DNA from: a virus
Length of the DNA stretch: 24,475 bases
Reading direction: 5' to 3' (one strand)
IMG/VR virus record: IMGVR_UViG_3300047095_000830
Span: 1-24,475 of that record
Below are positions 3,571-12,761 of this stretch, one piece after another. The stretch's first letter is position 1; the number at the start of each line of letters is the position of its first letter. The position numbers were made by a program, and so were the translations under genes. The notes under the pieces are model-generated. The model was not told where the DNA came from. It made no database searches and saw only the letters and a program-made list of their open reading frames with translations.

Positions 3571-3616
3571 CGCCCTAAATAGACCTAAATTTCGCTCTAA
3601 ATTTGGCTCTAACTCT
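3571..3616. repeat. Imperfect 12-bp tandem repeats (CTAAAT units)
   Basis: Four consecutive units: CGCCCTAAATAG, ACCTAAATTT, CGCTCTAAATTT and GGCTCTAACTCT. The last unit overlaps the stop codon of the GNAT-like gene (stop at 3609-3611 on the minus strand). Iteron-like in form but short and degenerate. Confidence 0.55.
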
Positions 3617-3965
3617 CTGATGACCATCCATCAACGTCATCTGTGAGTCTTGGTACATGCCCACCAACGGCTTTTGCCCAAGCGTCACCTGCTTTAGTGC
3701 GTTGTGACGAGTGTACTGGTGGTGTAATTCCCCTAGTTTCAGCCTCTTCATGCGCTGTATCCCACATTGAGGTGGCAATACCCCTTCTGCGAGCGCTTTC
3801 ACCTACGTGAAGGTGTGATATTTCACCATCTTCAGAGTTCCATACCAGTCGGCCCACTTGCCCAGAGTCTGCAACAGCAGTGATTTCGTGTTCAGGAGTA
3901 AACGAAGGGTGTGACATCAGCCTGTAATTGAACTGTAAGTTACTTAAATTCTCATGTGCAGCCAT
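3609..3965 (-). CDS. GNAT-family N-acetyltransferase-like protein with QF tag
   Basis: A 118-aa protein predicted to transfer an acetyl group from acetyl-CoA to an unknown substrate. Residues 48-75 form the GNAT core: a beta strand with ISHLHV, then R59-R-R-G-I-A64, matching the Q/R-x-x-G-x-G/A acetyl-CoA pyrophosphate loop, then an alpha helix. The C-terminal HSSQRTKAGDAWAKAVGG stretch is the kind of ending I know from small phage GNATs. It is shorter than a typical GNAT (about 150 aa), so the N-terminal strands are reduced. The protein starts MAAHENLSNLQF, the Gln-Phe tag shared with its neighbours. Its ATG overlaps the upstream stop (TAATG), so translation is probably coupled. It is the last gene of the minus-strand block. 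Confidence 0.85.
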   Translation of the reverse strand: MAAHENLSNLQFNYRLMSHPSFTPEHEITAVADSGQVGRLVWNSEDGEISHLHVGESARRRGIATSMWDTAHEEAETRGITPPVHSSQRTKAGDAWAKAVGGHVPRLTDDVDGWSSES

Positions 3966-4432
3966 TATTTAGCCTTAAATGGTGGTTTACCACCGACCAT
4001 AGTAGACATAGCGTTTACACCAATTTCATGCCCATAGTCCCCACCTTGAGAGAAATGCTGGAATTGTATTCCTAGGTGTTTTACGTGGTTTCCTACAAAT
4101 TTTGAAGGAATAACATAGGAAGTTGAGCCTTTATCTTCATATCTGTTTGTGTATGGGTAGATTCGTTTCTGATTCAACTCAGGTACGTCATTTGGACCAT
4201 GTGTAAAGCCATCACCTGGGTCATCCCACGTCTTACGGGAAGTTGGGGCATTATCAGAGATTTCATATTTATGGATTTTATAAGTTGGTTCATCTTGTCC
4301 ACCAGCGCCAGCATTTTCTATTTCACCGTCTATGCGGTCATATGCAGCAGACATAGTACCTGTATGGAAAGGGTTACCATAAACATGAGGTGGTTCATCA
4401 CTAAACGTGCCGTGATAGACGATTTTACCCAT
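3965..4432 (-). CDS. ADP-ribosyltransferase-like protein (HGT motif)
   Basis: A 155-aa protein beginning MGKIVYHGT, with H7-G8-T9 on the first strand. This is followed by a second block (GNPFHTGTMSAAYDR) and a strand TYKIHKYEI, an arrangement typical of small phage ART-fold proteins. If active it would attach ADP-ribose from NAD+ to a host target; the third catalytic position is not obvious, so activity is unproven. Unlike its neighbours it lacks the Gln-Phe tag and starts almost directly with the catalytic strand. Both ends overlap neighbours in TAATG junctions (start at 4432 on the stop of the 54-aa gene, stop at 3965 on the GNAT start), giving tight translational coupling. Confidence 0.72.
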   Translation of the reverse strand: MGKIVYHGTFSDEPPHVYGNPFHTGTMSAAYDRIDGEIENAGAGGQDEPTYKIHKYEISDNAPTSRKTWDDPGDGFTHGPNDVPELNQKRIYPYTNRYEDKGSTSYVIPSKFVGNHVKHLGIQFQHFSQGGDYGHEIGVNAMSTMVGGKPPFKAK

Positions 4433-4596
4433 TATTTCTTCCTTTTGGCTTGTTTGGCTTTATGCTTTTCTAGCAAGTAAGCAGGGTCACGCTTGGTAAA
4501 ACCTGCTGCTTTGTGTATTTCCTCACGTGCGACAGGCTCACCCTCTACCCATACATAGTCGTTGAACTGACCACCTAGGTTGTTTTGGGCTGGCAT
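4432..4596 (-). CDS. Tagged 54-aa small protein
   Basis: A 54-aa protein starting MPAQNNLGGQF, the Gln-Phe tag, followed by an acidic stretch (VWVEGEPVAREE) and a strongly basic end (LEKHKAKQAKRKK). Both ends fit the operon exactly: its ATG overlaps the stop of the upstream ART-like gene (TAATG at 4596) and its own stop overlaps the ATG of the next one (4432). That organisation, plus the shared tag, makes it a real gene despite its size. No function known. It could be a carrier or adaptor that consists of the tag and a charged tail only. Confidence 0.8.
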   Translation of the reverse strand: MPAQNNLGGQFNDYVWVEGEPVAREEIHKAAGFTKRDPAYLLEKHKAKQAKRKK

Positions 4597-5039
4597 TAGG
4601 AACCAAATTTCTTACTCATGTAGTTTTGGTAAACATCACGCTCTTCTTCGGTATCTACTTGACCTGTTGTCAAAGCCTTGGCAGGGAATGAGCCAGTTAC
4701 ACGAGCACCACGAGCATGGCGAGTACCCGAAACAACGGTATCCCTGCTTGCTTTCTCTAATAATGGTCTTCCAATTGGCTCTACTACGTGAATGTAGCCA
4801 GATGGGTGCTCACTTTTGTTTTCGTAATCTTCCTTAGTCCACGTGTACTGTAGAGCAGTTATTGGGTTTGGAGCCATGTAAACACGGTCTGGGTTGTACC
4901 CAGGGTGGGTTTTTCGTTGATGTTCCATGTGTTCTGGGGTGCTTACCTTGCTTGCAGGGATAACCTCGGAGCCTGTGGGAATGCGTGTAGGCGAACCATG
5001 CAAGAACTGCTGAGGGTGGAGTGAGTCTTTAGCAGCCAT
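4596..5039 (-). CDS. Arr-like ADP-ribosyltransferase-fold protein with QF tag
   Basis: A 147-aa protein. After the tag MAAKDSLHPQQF comes LHGSP (H14-G15-S16), then DRVYMAPNPITALQYTW and a strand with HVVEPIGRP, closely following the rifampin ADP-ribosyltransferase (Arr) pattern of HGT, a VYxTxxxxxA strand-helix, and VxEPxG. The G-T-R-H-A-R-G-A-R-V segment near residue 110 fits the last Arr strand. In Arr this fold binds NAD+ and modifies a small molecule; here the target is unknown and may be a host protein or nucleic acid. It has S where Arr has T in HGT. The start overlaps the stop of the ParB-like gene (TAATG at 5039), and the stop overlaps the start of the 54-aa gene. Confidence 0.8.
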   Translation of the reverse strand: MAAKDSLHPQQFLHGSPTRIPTGSEVIPASKVSTPEHMEHQRKTHPGYNPDRVYMAPNPITALQYTWTKEDYENKSEHPSGYIHVVEPIGRPLLEKASRDTVVSGTRHARGARVTGSFPAKALTTGQVDTEEERDVYQNYMSKKFGS

Positions 5040-5341
5040 TATTTACCCTTATCCACATCTCTGATAGGTATTTGGTCAATCCCTAGGTCACGGGCAACGA
5101 TGGCCCTGTGATGCCCATCAATTAGCAAATTACGCTTAAGAGACACATCTAATGGTGTTTTAATACCTTCAGTTTTGATGGAGTCATGTAACGACTGATA
5201 GCGCTCGGTATCATCTTGAAAGATATTTTCAGCATCTAAATCCCCTATGGTGTACTCATTCCCAGAAGGGTCATCAAAGTGCATGTCGTTAGAAACCAAC
5301 CCACGCAACTGCTCCTGGTTAATGTGTTCGTGGGCTGGCAT
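5039..5341 (-). CDS. ParB/sulfiredoxin-fold protein (first of three)
   Basis: A 100-aa single-domain protein. The core is a helix (YQSLHDSIKTEGIKTPLDV), then LLIDGHHRAIVARDLG with D-G-H-H-R at 75-79, the phosphate-binding motif of the ParB/Srx fold, and an IPIRDVD strand. Such domains bind or cleave DNA or use NTPs; which one applies here is unknown. The N-terminus MPAHEHINQEQL is a divergent version of the tag (QL instead of QF). The start has TATAAT (5348-5353) with 6 bp between hexamer and ATG, so the mRNA is probably leaderless. It is the first of five cistrons chained by TAATG overlaps. Confidence 0.85.
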   Translation of the reverse strand: MPAHEHINQEQLRGLVSNDMHFDDPSGNEYTIGDLDAENIFQDDTERYQSLHDSIKTEGIKTPLDVSLKRNLLIDGHHRAIVARDLGIDQIPIRDVDKGK

Positions 5342-5347
5342 TAACTA

Positions 5348-5353
5348 ATTATA
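5348..5353 (-). promoter_or_regulatory. -10 box TATAAT, leaderless start at 5341
   Basis: The minus strand reads TCTATAATTAGTTAATG: a perfect -10 hexamer, 6 bp, then the ATG. With transcription normally starting about 7 bp after the hexamer, the mRNA should begin at or next to the ATG. No SD is present. Confidence 0.75.
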
Positions 5354-5384
5354 GATGGTAAAAAATTTGCCGTTGAAAGGGCGA

Positions 5385-6101
5385 TTATCCCTCTTTATGC
5401 ATTCCATAATCTCGCCATACATATTTATCTGGCTCTGTAGGTGCAATGTTTGAAGGGTCTAGGGAGTATCTGTTTATTGTTCTTTGAACATCACGCAAAT
5501 CCATTTGTTTAGAGGTTAACCCACGTTCTGGCAATTGTTCAGCCATGATGTTAGGGTTTTTAAGAAATTGTTGTAAATGTTTTTCTGTTGTCTTAAGATT
5601 GTTGTCATACGTCTTAAATCTGTCTTTAATGTGTTCACCACTGTGGTGAATACCCTCATCTATGACATGAATAGGCATATCAGGGTCAATTGCATGGGCA
5701 GCAGCAATTCTGTGATGCCCTTCGGTCAAAAGCACTTGGTCTGGCTTACTAGGGTTTCTCATAGCCCAAACAGCGTTTGACTTATCTAGACCATGTTTTT
5801 GAATATGTCGGTATAAGGAATCTGGCTCTCCCCATTTTGCTCTTTGGTATTTAATGTCTAGTAGGTGAGGAGAATGCTTATATTGCACAAAATCACGGTT
5901 ATCAAAGTCCTGACTAGTTTGCTTTTCCCAGTCAGTACGTGCCATCTTGCCTTCTGTGATATTGCGAGGTTGTTCAGCCGTAACCATTTCTAAAGCGTCA
6001 GATGCAGAAATAACCTCAGTTGCCATCCACTTTTTGATGGGTACTCCAGAACTCTTTTGAGATGGGGTTGCTTTATGAAACTGATTAGGGTTAAGAGCCA
6101 T
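5385..6101 (-). CDS. ParB/sulfiredoxin-fold protein (second), 238 aa
   Basis: Starts MALNPNQF, a short form of the tag, then about 60 residues of linker. The ParB-like core lies at about 85-150: LDIKYQRAKW, a helix with LYRHIQKHGLDKS, VLLTEGHHRIAAAHAI with E-G-H-H-R at 127-131, and a strand MPIHVID. The C-terminal third (about 150-238) is helical and charged with no motif I know; it ends with a DxxDYGMHKEG-like tail. The role is unknown; DNA nicking, NTP hydrolysis or a modified Srx-type reaction are all possible for this fold. It has its own -10 box (6108-6113), 6 bp from the ATG, and lies 15 bp after the ART-like gene. Confidence 0.83.
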   Translation of the reverse strand: MALNPNQFHKATPSQKSSGVPIKKWMATEVISASDALEMVTAEQPRNITEGKMARTDWEKQTSQDFDNRDFVQYKHSPHLLDIKYQRAKWGEPDSLYRHIQKHGLDKSNAVWAMRNPSKPDQVLLTEGHHRIAAAHAIDPDMPIHVIDEGIHHSGEHIKDRFKTYDNNLKTTEKHLQQFLKNPNIMAEQLPERGLTSKQMDLRDVQRTINRYSLDPSNIAPTEPDKYVWRDYGMHKEG

Positions 6102-6107
6102 TTACCA

Positions 6108-6113
6108 AGTATA
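6108..6113 (-). promoter_or_regulatory. -10 box TATACT, leaderless start at 6101
   Basis: The minus strand reads TCTATACTTGGTAAATG: TATACT, 6 bp, ATG. It shares the TCTATA lead-in with the boxes at 5348, 7242 and 10588. Confidence 0.72.
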
Positions 6114-6115
6114 GA

Positions 6116-6481
6116 TTATTCGTCAGGTAGCACTCTGCGTACTACACGAAGACCTTTTGCACGAATACCAGCAGGGTGTCTTGGGTCTGTCATTGCTTCC
6201 CCTACAGGTTCTACCTGAAACACATGAGGTTTATAGTTTTCGTATTCAGCAGCATTTGGGTGGTCACCATCAGCATTCCATTCGGCGTACCCACGGGCGG
6301 AGTCTAACTTTGATGTGGCATGAGCCCAATGTTTTGCTTCAGGGTATTCTCTTGGGTCATGGTGTGGTTCTGCACCAACTTCTATTCCTGGCTTAATGAT
6401 GTCACCTGCTTTGATGTGACCATAACGAAAAGTAGTCCCATGAAAGAATTGCTTACCACTTAAACTTTCATGTGCTGCCAT
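6116..6481 (-). CDS. Arr-like ADP-ribosyltransferase-fold protein with QF tag
   Basis: A 121-aa protein. The tag MAAHESLSGKQF runs straight into FHGTTFRYGHIKAGDIIKPG, a very clear Arr-type opening (H14-G15-T16, then a K-A-G-D-x-I-x-P-G turn). The middle has WAHATSKLDSARGYAEW (strand-helix), then HVFQVEPVGEAMTDP, and the end is GLRVVRRVL, matching the order of the rifampin ADP-ribosyltransferase family at nearly its full short length. It is expected to use NAD+; the substrate is not predictable. The first 14 bp overlap the end of the upstream ParB-like gene in another frame. No -10 box is seen at this start, so translation is probably coupled; a GAAAG at 6491-6495 on the minus strand is a weak SD. 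Confidence 0.85.
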   Translation of the reverse strand: MAAHESLSGKQFFHGTTFRYGHIKAGDIIKPGIEVGAEPHHDPREYPEAKHWAHATSKLDSARGYAEWNADGDHPNAAEYENYKPHVFQVEPVGEAMTDPRHPAGIRAKGLRVVRRVLPDE

Positions 6482-7235
6482 TATCTAGTCTTTCGTTCTT
6501 TAGATTAAACATGTCGTTCCTAAATTGGGTTAATCCCCGTCTACCTAATCCAGATTTAGGAGGCGGTGTGTACATATTATGAATAACTTCATTAAAGTGA
6601 TGCTGATGGTAGGTATGGAATCTTCCTGCGTAGTCCCCACCATGACGGTGACCTCTGATGTAAGGAAGGGTGCGGTCATAGTCGCTAGGAACACGCAACA
6701 TTGCCCCCTCACCCTTTTCAACCCGTTGACCACACGCTTTGCAGTTGGCTGAGTATTTAGTGTTTGTCAAAACTTCAGGCATCTTCTTTTTATTGTATTT
6801 ATACGGGTTTACACCTGGAAACTGTGGAGCACCATTCCTTGCGTACATTACAGGAATTTTTTGGTCTGGGTTTAATTCATACGAAGCATGAAGGCGATGA
6901 TGCCCATCTACAATGGTTGGCTCTTTTTTTGGTTTACGCTCATGTTGGTAATCCTCAGAAAGAACTACAGGCCATTGCTTGTCATAGCCTTTTTCCTTAA
7001 TACTTTTTACCATGTATTGTGCGCTGTTGTTACTATCTATGTGCCAAGCGGTTCCGCCCTCTTCCATACCTTTAGCGTCTTGTTCTGCTTTGGTAGGAGC
7101 ACTAAGGTCGCCAGAACGGTGAGTTTCAACAATTTCTCTAGGGGTAAGCGACTTTGACCTTGTGATGAACCTATTACCCCCTGCATAGTACGGGGGGTGC
7201 GTTAAGTCAAACTGTGGTCCAACAGGTCTTGGCAT
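6468..7235 (-). CDS. ParB/sulfiredoxin-fold protein fused to a zinc-binding segment
   Basis: A 255-aa protein. The start is MPRPVGPQF, a tag form close to the two metallopeptidase-like proteins on the other strand. The ParB-like core is at about 65-132: a helix (SAQYMVKSIKEKGYD), PTIVDGHHRLHASYEL with D-G-H-H-R at 110-114, and a strand KIPVMYA. Behind it is C165-x2-C168 (NCKACGQRVEKGEG) and a histidine-rich stretch (RGHRHGG at 194-200, HTYHQHHF at 207-214), likely a metal site. This is the only one of the three ParB-like proteins with a second domain. It has its own -10 box (7242-7247) and sits 28 bp after the desaturase gene. Target and activity unknown. Confidence 0.83.
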   Translation of the reverse strand: MPRPVGPQFDLTHPPYYAGGNRFITRSKSLTPREIVETHRSGDLSAPTKAEQDAKGMEEGGTAWHIDSNNSAQYMVKSIKEKGYDKQWPVVLSEDYQHERKPKKEPTIVDGHHRLHASYELNPDQKIPVMYARNGAPQFPGVNPYKYNKKKMPEVLTNTKYSANCKACGQRVEKGEGAMLRVPSDYDRTLPYIRGHRHGGDYAGRFHTYHQHHFNEVIHNMYTPPPKSGLGRRGLTQFRNDMFNLKNERLDNGST

Positions 7236-7263: not shown

Positions 7264-8145
7264 TTACCTTTTCCAAGGCTTTCTATTGAACCTTCCCAGG
7301 ATAACTACCTTGTTTTCTTCTAATTCATCAAGTATTTCAAAATGCAGTTTTCGCAGATACGAAGAAGGAACCGAAGGGTATAGGTGGTGTTCTGTGTGAA
7401 AGTCCACTAGTTTGATAAACGAAACCCTATTTATCAATGGAGTTATCAAACTACGAGTGTTTTTATATCTGTCCGAGCTTCCAGACACATGTGGTAACCA
7501 CATAAAAAGCACCATCAAAACATACCGTTGCAAAAGAAACGGAAAGTAAATCAACCATAAACCGTAAGACCCGTAGCCTGTAACCACAGTAGCCAAAACA
7601 ACAAGAAGGGTTATTCCTAACTGTCTGTCAATAGTCTTATTCTTACGGAACTCCAGCCTTTGTCTAACAAACTTGGGAAGTCTCTTAATCATGTACTTGT
7701 TAAAAATTGGAATAATTGAACCAACTTGAATTAGATACGACAAAAAGTAATACCTATTCATCAACCTAAACGATGGGAACGGTATAAAATCTGGGTCTGA
7801 GCCAAATGTTCCAGTGTTTTTGTGGTGTTCAATATGCAGGTTTGCAAATGGTTTATATGGTATTTGGGTTAGTACTCCAGATGTTTTCCCAATAGTTTTA
7901 TCTACCCATAGGTACTTACTCAAACCACCAGAAAAGTGTCGGTGTGCTGCTGCATGCATTGAGTTAAACAAAATAAAATAAGATAAACAGATAGTTATTG
8001 AACCAATTGCTAGCGGTATTGAACCACCAATGGTTAGCGCTACTGCAAGGAAGTAAAACAATAATCCAGCAAACCACTCAACTAACAGTGGTTTGCAAAA
8101 CTTGTTGGTGTACTTTTTGGTGGTGTTTGTGTGTGGGTAGTCCAT
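7264..8145 (-). CDS. Membrane fatty acid desaturase
   Basis: A 293-aa integral membrane di-iron desaturase that introduces a double bond into an acyl chain, using O2 and an electron donor. All three histidine boxes are present: HAAAH (64-68), HIEHH (104-108) and HTEHH (250-254). Hydrophobic spans before the first box (about 21-61) and between the second and third boxes fit the usual topology, and the length is close to the family norm. The regiospecificity and lipid substrate cannot be read from sequence. A membrane lipid enzyme is an auxiliary metabolic gene in a phage; it may alter host membrane fluidity during infection. It has its own TATAAT, 6 bp from the ATG, no tag, and stands between tagged genes and the unknown gene at 8163. 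Confidence 0.93.
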   Translation of the reverse strand: MDYPHTNTTKKYTNKFCKPLLVEWFAGLLFYFLAVALTIGGSIPLAIGSITICLSYFILFNSMHAAAHRHFSGGLSKYLWVDKTIGKTSGVLTQIPYKPFANLHIEHHKNTGTFGSDPDFIPFPSFRLMNRYYFLSYLIQVGSIIPIFNKYMIKRLPKFVRQRLEFRKNKTIDRQLGITLLVVLATVVTGYGSYGLWLIYFPFLLQRYVLMVLFMWLPHVSGSSDRYKNTRSLITPLINRVSFIKLVDFHTEHHLYPSVPSSYLRKLHFEILDELEENKVVILGRFNRKPWKR

Positions 8146-8151
8146 GTGGTG

Positions 8152-8157
8152 ATTATA
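8152..8157 (-). promoter_or_regulatory. -10 box TATAAT, leaderless start at 8145
   Basis: The minus strand reads GGTATAATCACCACATG: a perfect -10 hexamer, 6 bp, ATG. It sits in the 17-bp gap between the unknown gene and the desaturase gene, so the desaturase can be transcribed alone. Confidence 0.75.
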
Positions 8158-8162
8158 CCTAA

Positions 8163-8774
8163 CTATAAGGAAGTGTCTGGGGAAATAACTGTATCAAAAG
8201 GGTCAGACACATCTAAACCCTCTGGATACCAAATTTTAGTGTTTGTAATGTATTTGGGGCGTTCATCAGACAGTTTGACAAAAGACTCATCAAACACGAG
8301 CATACGGTTTCCAGGCCAAGCACCTACACGCCCACAATCTAAACGCACAAAGTTAAAGTGTTTGTGCTGGTCAGGGGTTGATGAGTACATATCACCGTAA
8401 GGGGCGGCAGTAAACATATACCTGCCTGTTTCCCACACCCCTTCTTTCATGTATACCTTTACGGCTAACTCAGACAGGGCGCTGTACTCATGGGTAGTGA
8501 AATCTTGCCCATAGCAACTCCATACCTGCAAATGGTCTAAAGGATGGTGGTGTACAGCAGGTGTATGGAAAGTTAAAGCGTGAAGTGGTACATGTTGTAC
8601 TAATGCACCATTCTCTAAAAGTAGAGATACACCCCATGCCCTATTAGGAATTGCAGATAGCCCATAGACTAAACAAGCAGTGTATTCACCAAACCCTTTT
8701 TCAAAGTTGTACAAAAACTCATTTTGGACATTACAGTAAAACGGTTTAGGAATGTCGGTAATGTGCGTTGCCAT
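8163..8774 (-). CDS. Phage protein of unknown function, 203 aa
   Basis: A soluble protein without signal peptide or membrane span. The stretch WGVSLLLENGALVQHVPLHAL, the PDQHKHFNFVRLD block and the end GNRMLVFDESFV recall a phage family of unknown function I have seen in actinophages; I cannot name a domain. I set the start at 8774 (MATHITDIPKPFYC) rather than the upstream ATG at 8798, because a TACTAT -10 box lies exactly 6 bp before 8774 and because the longer form would overlap the start of the divergent FmdB-like gene. It is the first gene of the minus-strand block. Confidence 0.75.
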   Translation of the reverse strand: MATHITDIPKPFYCNVQNEFLYNFEKGFGEYTACLVYGLSAIPNRAWGVSLLLENGALVQHVPLHALTFHTPAVHHHPLDHLQVWSCYGQDFTTHEYSALSELAVKVYMKEGVWETGRYMFTAAPYGDMYSSTPDQHKHFNFVRLDCGRVGAWPGNRMLVFDESFVKLSDERPKYITNTKIWYPEGLDVSDPFDTVISPDTSL

Positions 8775-8780
8775 ACGGCG

Positions 8781-8790
8781 ATAGTATAGT
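8781..8790. promoter_or_regulatory. Divergent overlapping -10 boxes
   Basis: The 10 bp ATAGTATAGT hold a plus-strand TATAGT (8785-8790), 6 bp from the ATG at 8797, and a minus-strand TACTAT (8781-8786), 6 bp from the ATG at 8774. The two hexamers share 2 bp, and the whole intergenic space is 22 bp. This is where the accessory region splits into its minus and plus arms. Confidence 0.68.
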
Positions 8791-8796
8791 GTCTCC

Positions 8797-8970
8797 ATGC
8801 CAACATATGCTTATAAATGCCCAAACGACCATCGTCACGAGGAAACTCGCAGTATCTACGATGAGCAGAAAACAATCCTGTGTCCAGACTGTAATGAGAA
8901 GTTGCGCCCTGTTTATTTCTCTCCAGCAGTAAATCTTGTAGGTAGAGGCTTTTATTCCAACGGAGGATAA
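8797..8970 (+). CDS. FmdB-like zinc ribbon protein, 57 aa
   Basis: Reads MPTYAYKCPNDHRHEE at the start, has C29-P-D-C32 in the middle, and ends NLVGRGFYSNGG. This matches the FmdB/CxxC_CxxC_SSSS zinc ribbon family: MPxYxYxC, a CPxC knuckle, then a GxGFYxxD-like end. In the first knuckle the usual second Cys is absent and H12 or H14 may be the ligand. Family members are small putative regulators with no firm function. The start fits a leaderless transcript from TATAGT at 8785-8790. The gene ends 17 bp before the first metallopeptidase-like gene. Confidence 0.85.
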   Translation: MPTYAYKCPNDHRHEETRSIYDEQKTILCPDCNEKLRPVYFSPAVNLVGRGFYSNGG

Positions 8971-8987: not shown

Positions 8988-10592
8988 ATGCCTTTAGGAC
9001 CGCAGTTTAGCAACACATATTGGGAGGACCCTGAATCAAACAAGGTCATGTCTTCCACAGAGTTGCCTACTACAAAAGGTGACCTGCCTACAATGGAACA
9101 ACGAAAACCACAGATTGCTGAAGGTTTTGGTACTTCTGATAACCCACAGGGTATGTTGTTTAGCCCATACTCATACACAGGGTTAAAAAACGACCCAACT
9201 GTTCCTGCTGAACAACGGGTGGGCGCTATTAACAAAGCATTACATTTAGGTGATTTAGAGCATTTTAAAAAAAGAAAAGCATTAAGGGAAGCAAAGAATG
9301 CTGAAAGAGTGGAATACAACCGTAACCGAAAACCTGGTCAAGACCGCCGTAATATTTTGCCTGAATACGGTGACCCTGTTATTTCTTTTAAAAAACATGA
9401 AGCACTTGGAAAAGCCGCAAATGCTTTAGATATACCAACCCGTGAATATGAAACAGGTATAAATGCTCCTACCTATCCTACGGATTGGGGAAAAGGTTGG
9501 GCAAGTTTTGGTGAAATATATGTTGGTGTGGGTAGAGACTCATCAACTGTTACAACAGAAAAAACAACGTATGAACCATCTGACAAGCCTATTGTAAACA
9601 AAGGCTTTTGGAACCAATACGAGAAGAAGATACAACACCCTTACAACATCCACACGATACTTGAAGAAGACGGTGTTCATTGGCAAAATGATAAAGGCCA
9701 TGTTATAACAGGTGACGTTCCTGAACATGTTGGTAAGGTTATTGGGGAAGACCCATCTCAAAATATGACAATGGATTGGTTAAAAGAAAATAACTATCAC
9801 CCAAACGTGTACCCAACTAAAGGAGAGGGCGGTAAAAAACACGCAGTTGGTGAAGAACTTTCTCTTGAAAGTGGTCCACACCCACTTGTTGGTGGTGAAT
9901 ACACTTACCAAACATGGCACACACGGTTTGAACCAGACACAACAAAAGAACCTAAAGTTACACAGACTAGAAAAAATGTACAAGGTGAGTATGTAGCAAA
10001 CAAACGAACACTTGCTCACGAGTTAGGTCATACGCTAGAACCACATGATAAGGCTCAACGTGATTTAACTAAGCGTAGCGGTAGGCAGATATATGACCTT
10101 GACCCAGTTAGTGAAGGGTATGCAGACGCACTAGCCGACAGAGCGCATCATTATTCTGGTCAATTTGAAAAACACTTAACTAACACCCAGTTACGTGCAA
10201 AAGATATTAGTGAAACTGGCTACACCTCTAGTTACCACGCATGGAACGCTGAAGAACGAGCCCTTTATTCTGCTACTCGTTTTCACCTAGCAGCGCACCC
10301 TGAGCGTAGAGATGAAATGCCTACCCGTAAAGGTTTGGGAGAAACTCTTCTTAGTACTAGGTATTCACGTAGTGGTGAAATCCCAACAACAAAGTTAATG
10401 CTTGGGCATATGTACGAAAATATGCCACACGTTCGCCCAGTACTACACGAACTTGGTTTTGGTAAAACTGCCCAAACAGCACATGAAGAATTTATGTCAA
10501 GGGTTCCTAATAAATCCGCTATGCGTGGAAAACAGTATTATGACGGTAAACAACGGGAAGTTTACGAACAGCCAGAACTACCTGGTCTATAA
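8988..10592 (+). CDS. Zinc metallopeptidase-like protein (HELGH), first paralogue
   Basis: A 534-aa protein. The tag MPLGPQF is followed by SNTYWEDP, and a QGMLFSPYSYTG box sits near residue 50. The catalytic motif is H344-E-L-G-H348 in TLAHELGHTLEPHD, and E376 in SEGYADALAD is a good third zinc ligand, an arrangement of the gluzincin type. The region after it (ALYSATRFHLAAHPERR, MYENMPHVRPVLHELGFG) is shared with the next gene, so the two are paralogues. The first 300 residues are low in hydrophobic core and may be a long linker or an undetected domain. No signal peptide. It ends QPELPGL. Substrate unknown; host protein or cell-surface cleavage is possible. It is leaderless from TATAAT at 8976-8981. 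Confidence 0.82.
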   Translation: MPLGPQFSNTYWEDPESNKVMSSTELPTTKGDLPTMEQRKPQIAEGFGTSDNPQGMLFSPYSYTGLKNDPTVPAEQRVGAINKALHLGDLEHFKKRKALREAKNAERVEYNRNRKPGQDRRNILPEYGDPVISFKKHEALGKAANALDIPTREYETGINAPTYPTDWGKGWASFGEIYVGVGRDSSTVTTEKTTYEPSDKPIVNKGFWNQYEKKIQHPYNIHTILEEDGVHWQNDKGHVITGDVPEHVGKVIGEDPSQNMTMDWLKENNYHPNVYPTKGEGGKKHAVGEELSLESGPHPLVGGEYTYQTWHTRFEPDTTKEPKVTQTRKNVQGEYVANKRTLAHELGHTLEPHDKAQRDLTKRSGRQIYDLDPVSEGYADALADRAHHYSGQFEKHLTNTQLRAKDISETGYTSSYHAWNAEERALYSATRFHLAAHPERRDEMPTRKGLGETLLSTRYSRSGEIPTTKLMLGHMYENMPHVRPVLHELGFGKTAQTAHEEFMSRVPNKSAMRGKQYYDGKQREVYEQPELPGL

Positions 10593-10593
10593 T
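10588..10593 (+). promoter_or_regulatory. -10 box TATAAT overlapping a stop codon, start at 10599
   Basis: TCTATAATTAGTCATG: TATAAT, 5 bp, ATG. The TAA stop of the upstream gene (10590-10592) lies inside the hexamer. Confidence 0.72.
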
Positions 10594-10598
10594 TAGTC

Positions 10599-12050
10599 AT
10601 GCCTAGATTTGGTTCACAGTTCAATAACACCTACTTCAACCCTGAAGATGGTGGAGAGACACAAGAGTTTCGCCATCCTTATCAAGAAGGACACCTTCAA
10701 GGCGTGTTGTTTCATCCTGCAACAGGAACTATGACTTCAGAAGACCCAACGTATCCTGGGAAAAAACGCCTTAATGACTTTTCTAAAATACTAAAAACTG
10801 AAGATTCATTATTAATATATCATGCTGGAAATACAGATTTGCCAATAGCAGAAATGGACCCAAGCGTTGTTGGGCTACACCCACGTGACGGTATCTTTAA
10901 TGGTGTAAGAATAAACAATAAATTAAAAACGTACAGTGGAACCTGGTCAAGTACGAACCGCCAAATCCATATGTCAGGTAACAATAACAGCATGGATACT
11001 ACCCTTGCCCATGAGTGGGGTCACAGGGAAGATTCGCCAGATGGTAAAGGTGAGGACCATTCACACACTCGTTTAGAAAGTGCAATGTATAACAAAGGCC
11101 GTATGCATATATCTCCGTACATGGAAGGAACTGCCGATGGTTACATGGAAAGATATTCTGAACCGTACTCTAACATGAAATGGGAAGGTGACCCCAAGGG
11201 TATACGTAAGGGTGTGGGTTATAACAGAAGACACGAAGCAGTATTAGACCCAGCACAAAGAGAAGATAGACACTTAGATTTATGGAGAAAAACTGGGGAA
11301 CTATCTGGGTATGGGGTTGATAACAAGAGGTGGAAAGATAAAAGGGAAATGGCTTTATATGCGGCTGCACGATTGCACGTAGCCTCTGGCGGTAAGTCTG
11401 CAATTGATTCATTACCTAATATGACTGAACTTGCAGAAACTCATTTAAGAGATTATGGTCATACTTTGTATAAAAAAGACAAAGACAGAGTAATGAAATC
11501 AGAAAAAGGATTTGCTAGATTGCCTCATGATATTCCTGAATATCAAAATGCGGCTAAACATCTTTATTTAGGGAAATTAGTTCACGAAAACCCATCACTG
11601 CACGGTCAATTAGACAAAATGGGGCTAGGAGAAATCTCTACCTACTCGCAAGCCTTTTATAAACACCATGTTGCAAATACTGCGCTTGTAAATAGGGAAG
11701 ATACTGAAAGAGCAATGGACCTGTATGACCAGAGGCAGGCTGATTCAGAACGACCTTACAATAACCCTATGACAAATAAAATTGAACATGGGCGTAACCC
11801 CTATGTGCGTTTGGGTCACCCAGGGGAACCATACGCAGATATGGGAATGAAATACATGGGTAAACGGCACCAGTATGTTGACGGAAAATACTTAAGTGTT
11901 CAGCACACCCTTCCAGGAATGGAACAGTTTGACGAACTTCAAGTTAATCATGACGCAAACCCAATGCCTAAACCTTTGACCAAAAAACAACTTACACGTA
12001 CTGATGACCTTCATCTTCAAAGAAACATAAAGATACCACGACTTAAATGA
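10599..12050 (+). CDS. Zinc metallopeptidase-like protein (HEWGH), second paralogue
   Basis: A 483-aa protein. The tag MPRFGSQF is followed by NNTYFNPEDGG, parallel to the preceding paralogue, and by QGVLFHPATGTM. The zinc motif H138-E-W-G-H142 is in TLAHEWGHREDSPDG, and E176 in MEGTADGYME is the likely third ligand. C-terminal to it the ALYAAARLHVASGG and LHGQLDKMGLGEIS segments align with the first paralogue, while about 200 residues are missing before the catalytic motif, so the pair differ mainly in the N-terminal linker. It ends with a basic stretch. It begins 6 bp behind the stop of its paralogue and has its own TATAAT. Substrate unknown; a phage effector or virion protease is inference. 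Confidence 0.82.
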   Translation: MPRFGSQFNNTYFNPEDGGETQEFRHPYQEGHLQGVLFHPATGTMTSEDPTYPGKKRLNDFSKILKTEDSLLIYHAGNTDLPIAEMDPSVVGLHPRDGIFNGVRINNKLKTYSGTWSSTNRQIHMSGNNNSMDTTLAHEWGHREDSPDGKGEDHSHTRLESAMYNKGRMHISPYMEGTADGYMERYSEPYSNMKWEGDPKGIRKGVGYNRRHEAVLDPAQREDRHLDLWRKTGELSGYGVDNKRWKDKREMALYAAARLHVASGGKSAIDSLPNMTELAETHLRDYGHTLYKKDKDRVMKSEKGFARLPHDIPEYQNAAKHLYLGKLVHENPSLHGQLDKMGLGEISTYSQAFYKHHVANTALVNREDTERAMDLYDQRQADSERPYNNPMTNKIEHGRNPYVRLGHPGEPYADMGMKYMGKRHQYVDGKYLSVQHTLPGMEQFDELQVNHDANPMPKPLTKKQLTRTDDLHLQRNIKIPRLK

Positions 12051-12063: not shown

Positions 12064-12195
12064 ATGACAGACTTTCAAGATGGTTTAGGAGAATACGGTA
12101 AACAACGCTTCCGTGAATTGGTTACAACCCGTGAAGAGCGTGTGGAACAAAGACTTTCCGAGTTGTTCCGTAAAACCGATGATTCCAAAAAATAA
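12064..12195 (+). CDS. Small charged protein, 43 aa, unknown
   Basis: Reads MTDFQDGLGEYGKQRF, then a helix of alternating charges (RELVTTREERVEQRLSELF) and a KTDDSKK end. It is not recognised. The helix is amphipathic and could be a coiled coil. The spacing to the upstream gene (13 bp) and the -10-like TATGGT support it, as does the 17-bp overlap with the next small gene. The KQRF near residue 16 might be a decayed tag, but this is doubtful. Confidence 0.55.
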   Translation: MTDFQDGLGEYGKQRFRELVTTREERVEQRLSELFRKTDDSKK

Positions 12196-12331
12196 TAATC
12201 TAAGTTCTCAATTTCCCGATGAAGAGGAAGAGTTGTACGAGGATTACCACATTCATAAAGAAAACCGTAAATCTTCAAATGACCGCAAGGAAAAAAAGAA
12301 GATAAAGAAGTTTTCAAAATACGATTACTGA
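12179..12331 (+). CDS. Tagged 50-aa small protein
   Basis: Starts MIPKNNNLSSQF, a clear Gln-Phe tag very like that of the 54-aa protein on the other strand (NNLGGQF). An acidic stretch (PDEEEELYEDYH) follows, then a lysine-rich tail (RKEKKKIKKFSKYDY). A longer frame extends upstream to 12113, but I prefer ATG 12179 because it places the tag at the N-terminus. It overlaps the preceding gene by 17 bp, so coupled translation is likely. No known function. Like its minus-strand counterpart it consists of little more than tag plus a charged region. Confidence 0.68.
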   Translation: MIPKNNNLSSQFPDEEEELYEDYHIHKENRKSSNDRKEKKKIKKFSKYDY

Positions 12332-12334
12332 CGA

Positions 12335-12340
12335 TAGGAT
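12335..12340 (+). promoter_or_regulatory. -10-like TAGGAT before 12347
   Basis: TAGGAT, 6 bp (TTAGAC), ATG. It keeps the spacing of the stronger boxes; the hexamer matches TAnnnT. Confidence 0.5.
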
Positions 12341-12346
12341 TTAGAC

Positions 12347-12505
12347 ATGGTAATCACCTACACAATTCATACGCCTCAAATGCTTGACGCAAAGGAACAG
12401 GCTGTTATACTCGCACATAACCAAGGATTCAGTTCGGTCATGGTTACAGCGATTGACCAGCCAGAATACGGTGAATACCAAGTAACACTATCCGTAATGA
12501 AATAA
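12347..12505 (+). CDS. Small protein, 52 aa, unknown
   Basis: Sequence in parts: a strand MVITYTIHTP, a helix MLDAKEQAVILAHNQGF, and two strands SSVMVTAI and EYQVTLSVM. This reads as a compact beta-alpha-beta-beta fold, which supports real coding. I do not recognise a family. The start is supported by TAGGAT at the leaderless distance. It lies 15 bp after the tagged 50-aa gene and 10 bp before the next gene. Confidence 0.72.
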   Translation: MVITYTIHTPQMLDAKEQAVILAHNQGFSSVMVTAIDQPEYGEYQVTLSVMK

Positions 12506-12515
12506 AGGAACAAAG

Positions 12516-12761
12516 ATGGCAACTAAAGAAGAACTTGACTTTGACACATGGTTGGCAATGGGGATTGACAACAAATGGTGTTTGTACCCAACCTGTTACA
12601 TGCATGATGGGATTCCAACTACCGATGAAGAAGAAGACGAAATGGAAGATGGTGGTGACCCTTGTATGCACGTAATTCGTGTATTCAGCACCCCAGAAGA
12701 GTTTGATGAAGCCCTCAAGCGCATGGAGGCGATTCTTCCGTACCGTATGCCTAGGGAGTAG
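12516..12761 (+). CDS. Small acidic Cys/His protein, 81 aa, unknown
   Basis: Contains C22-x4-C27-x2-H30 and, after an acidic loop (TTDEEEDEMEDGG), C50-x-H52, which together could bind one zinc ion. The C-terminus is a helix (PEEFDEALKRMEAIL). The WCxxPxC...HDGxP...GGDPCxH layout is one I associate with small actinophage proteins of unknown function. It has an SD-like AAGGA about 7 bp before the ATG, unlike most neighbours that are leaderless, so it may share a transcript with the 52-aa gene. No enzymatic motif. Confidence 0.8.
   Translation: MATKEELDFDTWLAMGIDNKWCLYPTCYMHDGIPTTDEEEDEMEDGGDPCMHVIRVFSTPEEFDEALKRMEAILPYRMPRE

Follow-up and report, generated by a model that had tools for sequence, protein, structure and literature searches.

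Desaturase genes in phages

Genes of the membrane desaturase superfamily have been described in phages on several occasions. Desaturase-superfamily genes are reported from cyanophages (Roitman et al. 2018, ISME J 12:343), and viral FAD genes from Arctic brine and sea ice are under purifying selection, form some clades without microbial members, and are present in several copies in some viruses (PMC7300359). Desaturases have also been found in Lake Baikal viruses of Nitrospirota (PMC7678222) and on a likely pelagiphage scaffold (PMC11480375), and gp73 of Microbacterium phage Min1 is annotated as an acyl-CoA desaturase.

The gene considered here lies in a stretch of 24,475 nt, positions 1-24,475 of IMG/VR record IMGVR_UViG_3300047095_000830, which we refer to as the window. 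It is similar to the reported cyanophage lipid desaturases in being a desaturase-superfamily auxiliary metabolic gene of aquatic phages, but its host is probably actinobacterial. With the Arctic genes it shares a phage location and purifying selection and, with some of them, membership of a phage-only clade and the presence of multiple copies in some phages; the hosts and the habitat (subzero brines) are different. Min1 gp73 likewise belongs to the desaturase family and comes from an actinobacterial phage, but it gives an insignificant match (E 2) to a paralogue found in related phages and no match to the window protein. A tblastn search of 50,697 phage records with the window protein returned no match even at E 10. 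The expectation that desaturases are rare among phages is therefore only partly right: no annotated phage record matches this protein, yet such genes have been reported repeatedly, and what is new here is a well supported member in a different host group. The desaturases assigned to the Acinetobacter 'phage' MD-2021a (L135 and L136; CAKLQH020000002.1), found with other queries, were set aside since the bacterial housekeeping genes uppP and ydiU adjoin them and the contig is probably bacterial.

The gene and its product

The features of the locus are listed in Table 1. The open reading frame begins with ATG, has no internal stop, and matches the Pfam family FA_desaturase with an E-value of 6.2e-31 across residues 45-281, its score of 108.5 bits being well above the gathering cut-off of 29.7. 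The histidine pattern of the family, H-x3/4-H, H-x2/3-HH and (H/Q)-x2/3-HH, is present in the three boxes, and their eight histidines (H64/H68, H104/H107/H108 and H250/H253/H254) together with H219 are invariant in an alignment with 34 homologues. Hydrophobic stretches at residues 15-68 and approximately 170-221, in a protein modeled as helical, are compatible with two membrane-spanning pairs, where the family typically has about four spans, and box III follows the second hydrophobic pair as is usual in desaturases. PHROGs contains no family for the protein. From its sequence, the gene is an intact membrane desaturase or hydroxylase of the fatty-acid-desaturase superfamily, and the complete gene and boxes of the original prediction are borne out, its membrane spans being probable.

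Table 1. Coordinates of the desaturase-type gene, its conserved motifs and its upstream elements in the window.
Feature	Position	Strand	Remarks
Membrane-bound di-iron desaturase/hydroxylase gene	7264..8145	-	293 aa; PF00487
Histidine box I, HAAAH, residues 64-68	7942..7956	-	From sequence; both His invariant, 34 homologues
Histidine box II, HIEHH, residues 104-108	7822..7836	-	From sequence; His invariant
H219 in WLPH, further conserved His of metal-ligand type	7489..7491	-	Invariant in alignment
Histidine box III, HTEHH, residues 250-254, in DFHTEHHLYPSVP	7384..7398	-	From sequence; His invariant
TATAAT box, candidate -10 of a leaderless transcript	8152..8157	-	6 nt before ATG; leaderless start putative
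CAGACA	8179-8174	-	16 nt upstream of TATAAT
Upstream same-strand gene, phrog_3704 'ferredoxin'/'PurM' family	8163..8798	-	Start probably 8774 (MATHITD...); no Pfam domain

An AlphaFold2 model of the protein (pLDDT 80.8, pTM 0.80) was compared with solved and viral structures. The PDB matches include a subunit of the Chlamydomonas Ycf2/Orf2971-FtsHi complex (Z 13.6-14.4) and the alkane monooxygenase AlkB (Z 9.8-10.5 over 226-228 residues); these span 226-249 residues with Z values well above those of unrelated entries, to be read with caution given that the model is mostly helical. The top four matches in a library of viral structures are giant-virus proteins, of which three are named as desaturases and one for a cytochrome b5-like domain. 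A sequence search of solved structures gave no significant match, and stearoyl-CoA desaturase structures are absent among the Foldseek matches listed, which is uninformative as to the fold. The comparisons support a predicted fold resembling that of histidine-rich di-iron membrane enzymes; with the intact motifs and purifying selection (see below), this favors the earlier suggestion that the enzyme is likely active.

Phage location and probable host

The same gene is present in three further IMG/VR contigs (L002, L003 and L006) at 98-100% identity. The next gene in the window is also found in L002 and L003, and the preceding gene in L002 and L006, so in independent viral contigs the desaturase is flanked by phage genes, as is required of an auxiliary metabolic gene. 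The prediction that this is a phage gene is upheld, and a bacterial contaminant devoid of phage neighbors is ruled out by the shared flanks.

A tail sheath is encoded on longer contigs of this phage, along with a terminase sharing 45-47% identity with its counterparts in Streptomyces phages LuckySocke, Alone3, pSt2308, GiJojo and BRock. A 62 kb contig (L016) also encodes two WhiB-like regulators (10653-11021 and 12128-12541); among the control genomes, WhiB matches were obtained in Corynebacterium only. Because of the two WhiB genes and the similarity of the terminase to those of the BRock type, an actinobacterium is the most likely host, although this falls short of a host assignment. The best explanation of these contigs is that the carriers are contractile-tailed phages of actinobacteria with the desaturase as an auxiliary metabolic gene. 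No RNA family was found in the window, and a scan of the related contigs found no tRNA.

Three additional contigs (L004, L005 and L007) come from related phages, which share with the window phage, for example, a 2OG-Fe(II) oxygenase (57%) and a DUF6065 protein (56%). Their homologues are 67-70% identical to the window protein and are encoded directly after a second desaturase, a paralogue that is about 28% identical to the window protein. The location differs from that in the window phage, and the desaturases adjoin a glutathione-peroxidase-like gene and several genes resembling the 2OG oxygenase of the window. In two of these contigs (L004:1904-4653 and L007:4085-6842) there are two tandem desaturases, a small uncharacterized gene and the glutathione-peroxidase-like gene, with several 2OG-Fe(II) oxygenase-like genes adjoining.

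The near copies differ almost only silently: over 289 codons the window and L003 are separated by 11 synonymous changes and 2 non-synonymous ones, and between the window and either L002 or L006 all differences are synonymous; for the more distant L007 copy dN is 0.2 and dS is near saturation. Judged by these substitutions, the gene is under purifying selection and has been kept functional. This bears on the view that it is a passenger, or an artifact of assembly, with no role for the phage. The carriers number just seven contigs, window included, within the searches made, as might be expected of a passenger, but the same flanks recur in independent contigs, selection is purifying, and a related gene is found elsewhere in related phages. 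The purifying selection and the shared flanks largely refute that view, and we regard it as highly improbable.

Gene neighborhood and expression

The gene immediately upstream belongs to phrog_3704 and adjoins the desaturase in L002 and L006, although not in the second phage group. Relatives are present in 114 phage records, mostly of cyanophages, where they are annotated as 'PurM' or 'ferredoxin', names that look unreliable because the protein matches no Pfam domain.

Segments 3609-7235 and 8988-12050 contain genes with recurring short N-terminal tags, many of them ending in QF (MAAHESLS..QF, MPRPVGPQF, MPLGPQF, MPRFGSQF). Two of the tagged genes have HExxH motifs (HELGH and HEWGH). The desaturase itself is without the tag of the surrounding block.

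The desaturase was proposed to have its own promoter box within this block. The TATAAT box (8157-8152) is real and is unchanged in the three near copies (L002, L003 and L006), but it is a feature common to seven genes of the block: a TATA[AC]T hexamer, at 5353(-), 6113(-), 7247(-), 8157(-), 8788(-), 8976(+) and 10588(+), stands 5-8 nt ahead of each start codon. The frequency of promoter-like sites in the window is no higher than chance. Over the phage contigs, 13 of 43 TATA[AC]T hexamers lie 5-8 nt before an open reading frame of at least 60 aa, a count in which copies of one site may appear twice as some contigs overlap; for the other hexamers tried, 0-12% are followed by an open reading frame of at least 60 aa at any distance of 3-12 nt. 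Since the spacing would put the start of the transcript at or near the ATG, these sequences suggest that the window phage uses leaderless transcription. Leaderless mRNAs are common in actinobacteria. In the phages represented by L004, L005 and L007 the gene is instead directly downstream of the second desaturase.

Cellular homologues and origin

A first scan of genome contigs found no relative, and a profile scan then recovered actinobacterial, proteobacterial and one verrucomicrobial homologue with 22-38% identity in the best segments. When about 1,230 genomes from three phyla were searched with HMMs, nothing closer appeared: identity reached at best about 30% across most of the sequence, and the best group lay within a single actinobacterial order. 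The nearest cellular group is a set of actinobacterial desaturase-family proteins (L023-L026, L051-L054 and L092-L099) which have the same nine histidines but are only about 21-30% identical to the window protein.

In both of the trees constructed the phage proteins form one clade (support 99/96 and 99/95). The cellular members of a larger, well supported clade (99/93 and 99/99) are its sister group, so that the phage proteins fall outside the nearest cellular group; that both phage paralogues group together may reflect long-branch attraction. In the second tree the phage proteins are also apart from DesA-like and CrtW-like proteins. Because the phage clade is well supported and the nearest cellular homologues are only about 19-30% identical, there is no sign in these sequences of recent capture from a host, and the lineage appears so far to be confined to these phages.

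Substrate and proposed role

The designation as a fatty acid desaturase stands for the superfamily but does not establish an acyl substrate, since every curated desaturase model scores below its cut-off and a carotenoid hydroxylase gives the best of the weak matches. Among the NCBIfam models the window protein scores 37.6 bits against CrtR beta-carotene hydroxylase (NF045688, cut-off 475), a member of the same superfamily, followed by the arginine hydroxylase GntB, DesB and then the beta-carotene ketolase CrtW (NF045690, 20.3 bits, cut-off 350) and DesA; the DesA and DesB models (NF052548/NF052549) give 17.3 and 25.4 bits against a cut-off of 500. This ranking calls for caution and is weak evidence because NCBIfam has few fatty-acid desaturase models of this type, showing just two for bacteria.

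We favor the interpretation, with a probability of roughly 0.6, that the gene encodes an intact di-iron oxygenase, carried as a phage auxiliary gene with its own promoter, that most likely desaturates or hydroxylates acyl chains of the host membrane and so shifts its fluidity. The sequence data speak directly to the superfamily, the intact motifs, the phage location, the purifying selection and the relatives among actinobacterial phages. The enzyme would be made from its own promoter during infection and placed in the host membrane, where it would receive electrons from a host carrier, presumably ferredoxin or similar; we recognized no phage electron donor, the adjacent 'ferredoxin'-family gene having no Pfam domain. 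It would then activate O2 to desaturate (or hydroxylate) a hydrophobic molecule of the host, most probably an acyl chain of membrane lipids, and the resulting change in membrane fluidity while the phage replicates could be of benefit to it. The earlier suggestions of a role in low-temperature fluidity, DNA entry or lysis are conjectural. Acyl chains are kept as the most likely substrate because they represent the commonest function of the superfamily. Counting against them are the sub-threshold scores with curated fatty-acid desaturase models, the separation of the phage clade from DesA-like and CrtW-like groups in the tree, and the non-lipid neighbors of the plasmid homologues described below.

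An enzyme of the same superfamily could instead act on a host carotenoid or other terpenoid in the manner of a CrtR-type hydroxylase, altering during infection pigments with a role in membrane protection or rhodopsin function. CrtR is the best weak curated match not only of the window protein but also of the phage paralogue, which scores better (about 60 bits), and of most of the nearest cellular homologues tested, and many freshwater actinobacteria carry both rhodopsins and carotenoids. However, all of the scores are far below the CrtR cut-off in a ranking that includes only two bacterial fatty-acid desaturase models, and by eye the neighborhoods of the cellular relatives are mixed, with no conserved lipid or carotenoid operon and no carotenoid gene recognized. 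We therefore consider a carotenoid substrate possible, though unlikely.

The second place of GntB raises the prospect that an amino-acid-derived compound or other secondary metabolite is hydroxylated or desaturated. Two plasmid homologues, from Nostoc and Novosphingobium, are situated in what look like clusters of small-molecule genes, adjoining SDR, aminotransferase, nitric oxide synthase or FMN-monooxygenase genes and not lipid genes; these homologues are only about 25% identical to the window protein and branch apart from the phage clade. A small-molecule substrate is improbable.

Implications

With this gene, for which the evidence of selection is good, probable actinobacterial phages join the carriers of membrane desaturase-type enzymes. 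The finding indicates that the enzyme's evolution in phages has lasted long enough for a clade of its own to form, some of the phages having a tandem paralogue. It also cautions that the label 'fatty acid desaturase' on phage genes of this superfamily does not fix the substrate. A broader proposal is that these proteins are a phage-specific clade of di-iron oxygenases, with tandem paralogues in some members, acting on a host molecule other than an acyl chain, such as a carotenoid. We think this distinctly unlikely, but if true it would be a phage modification of membranes or pigments of a kind not yet described.
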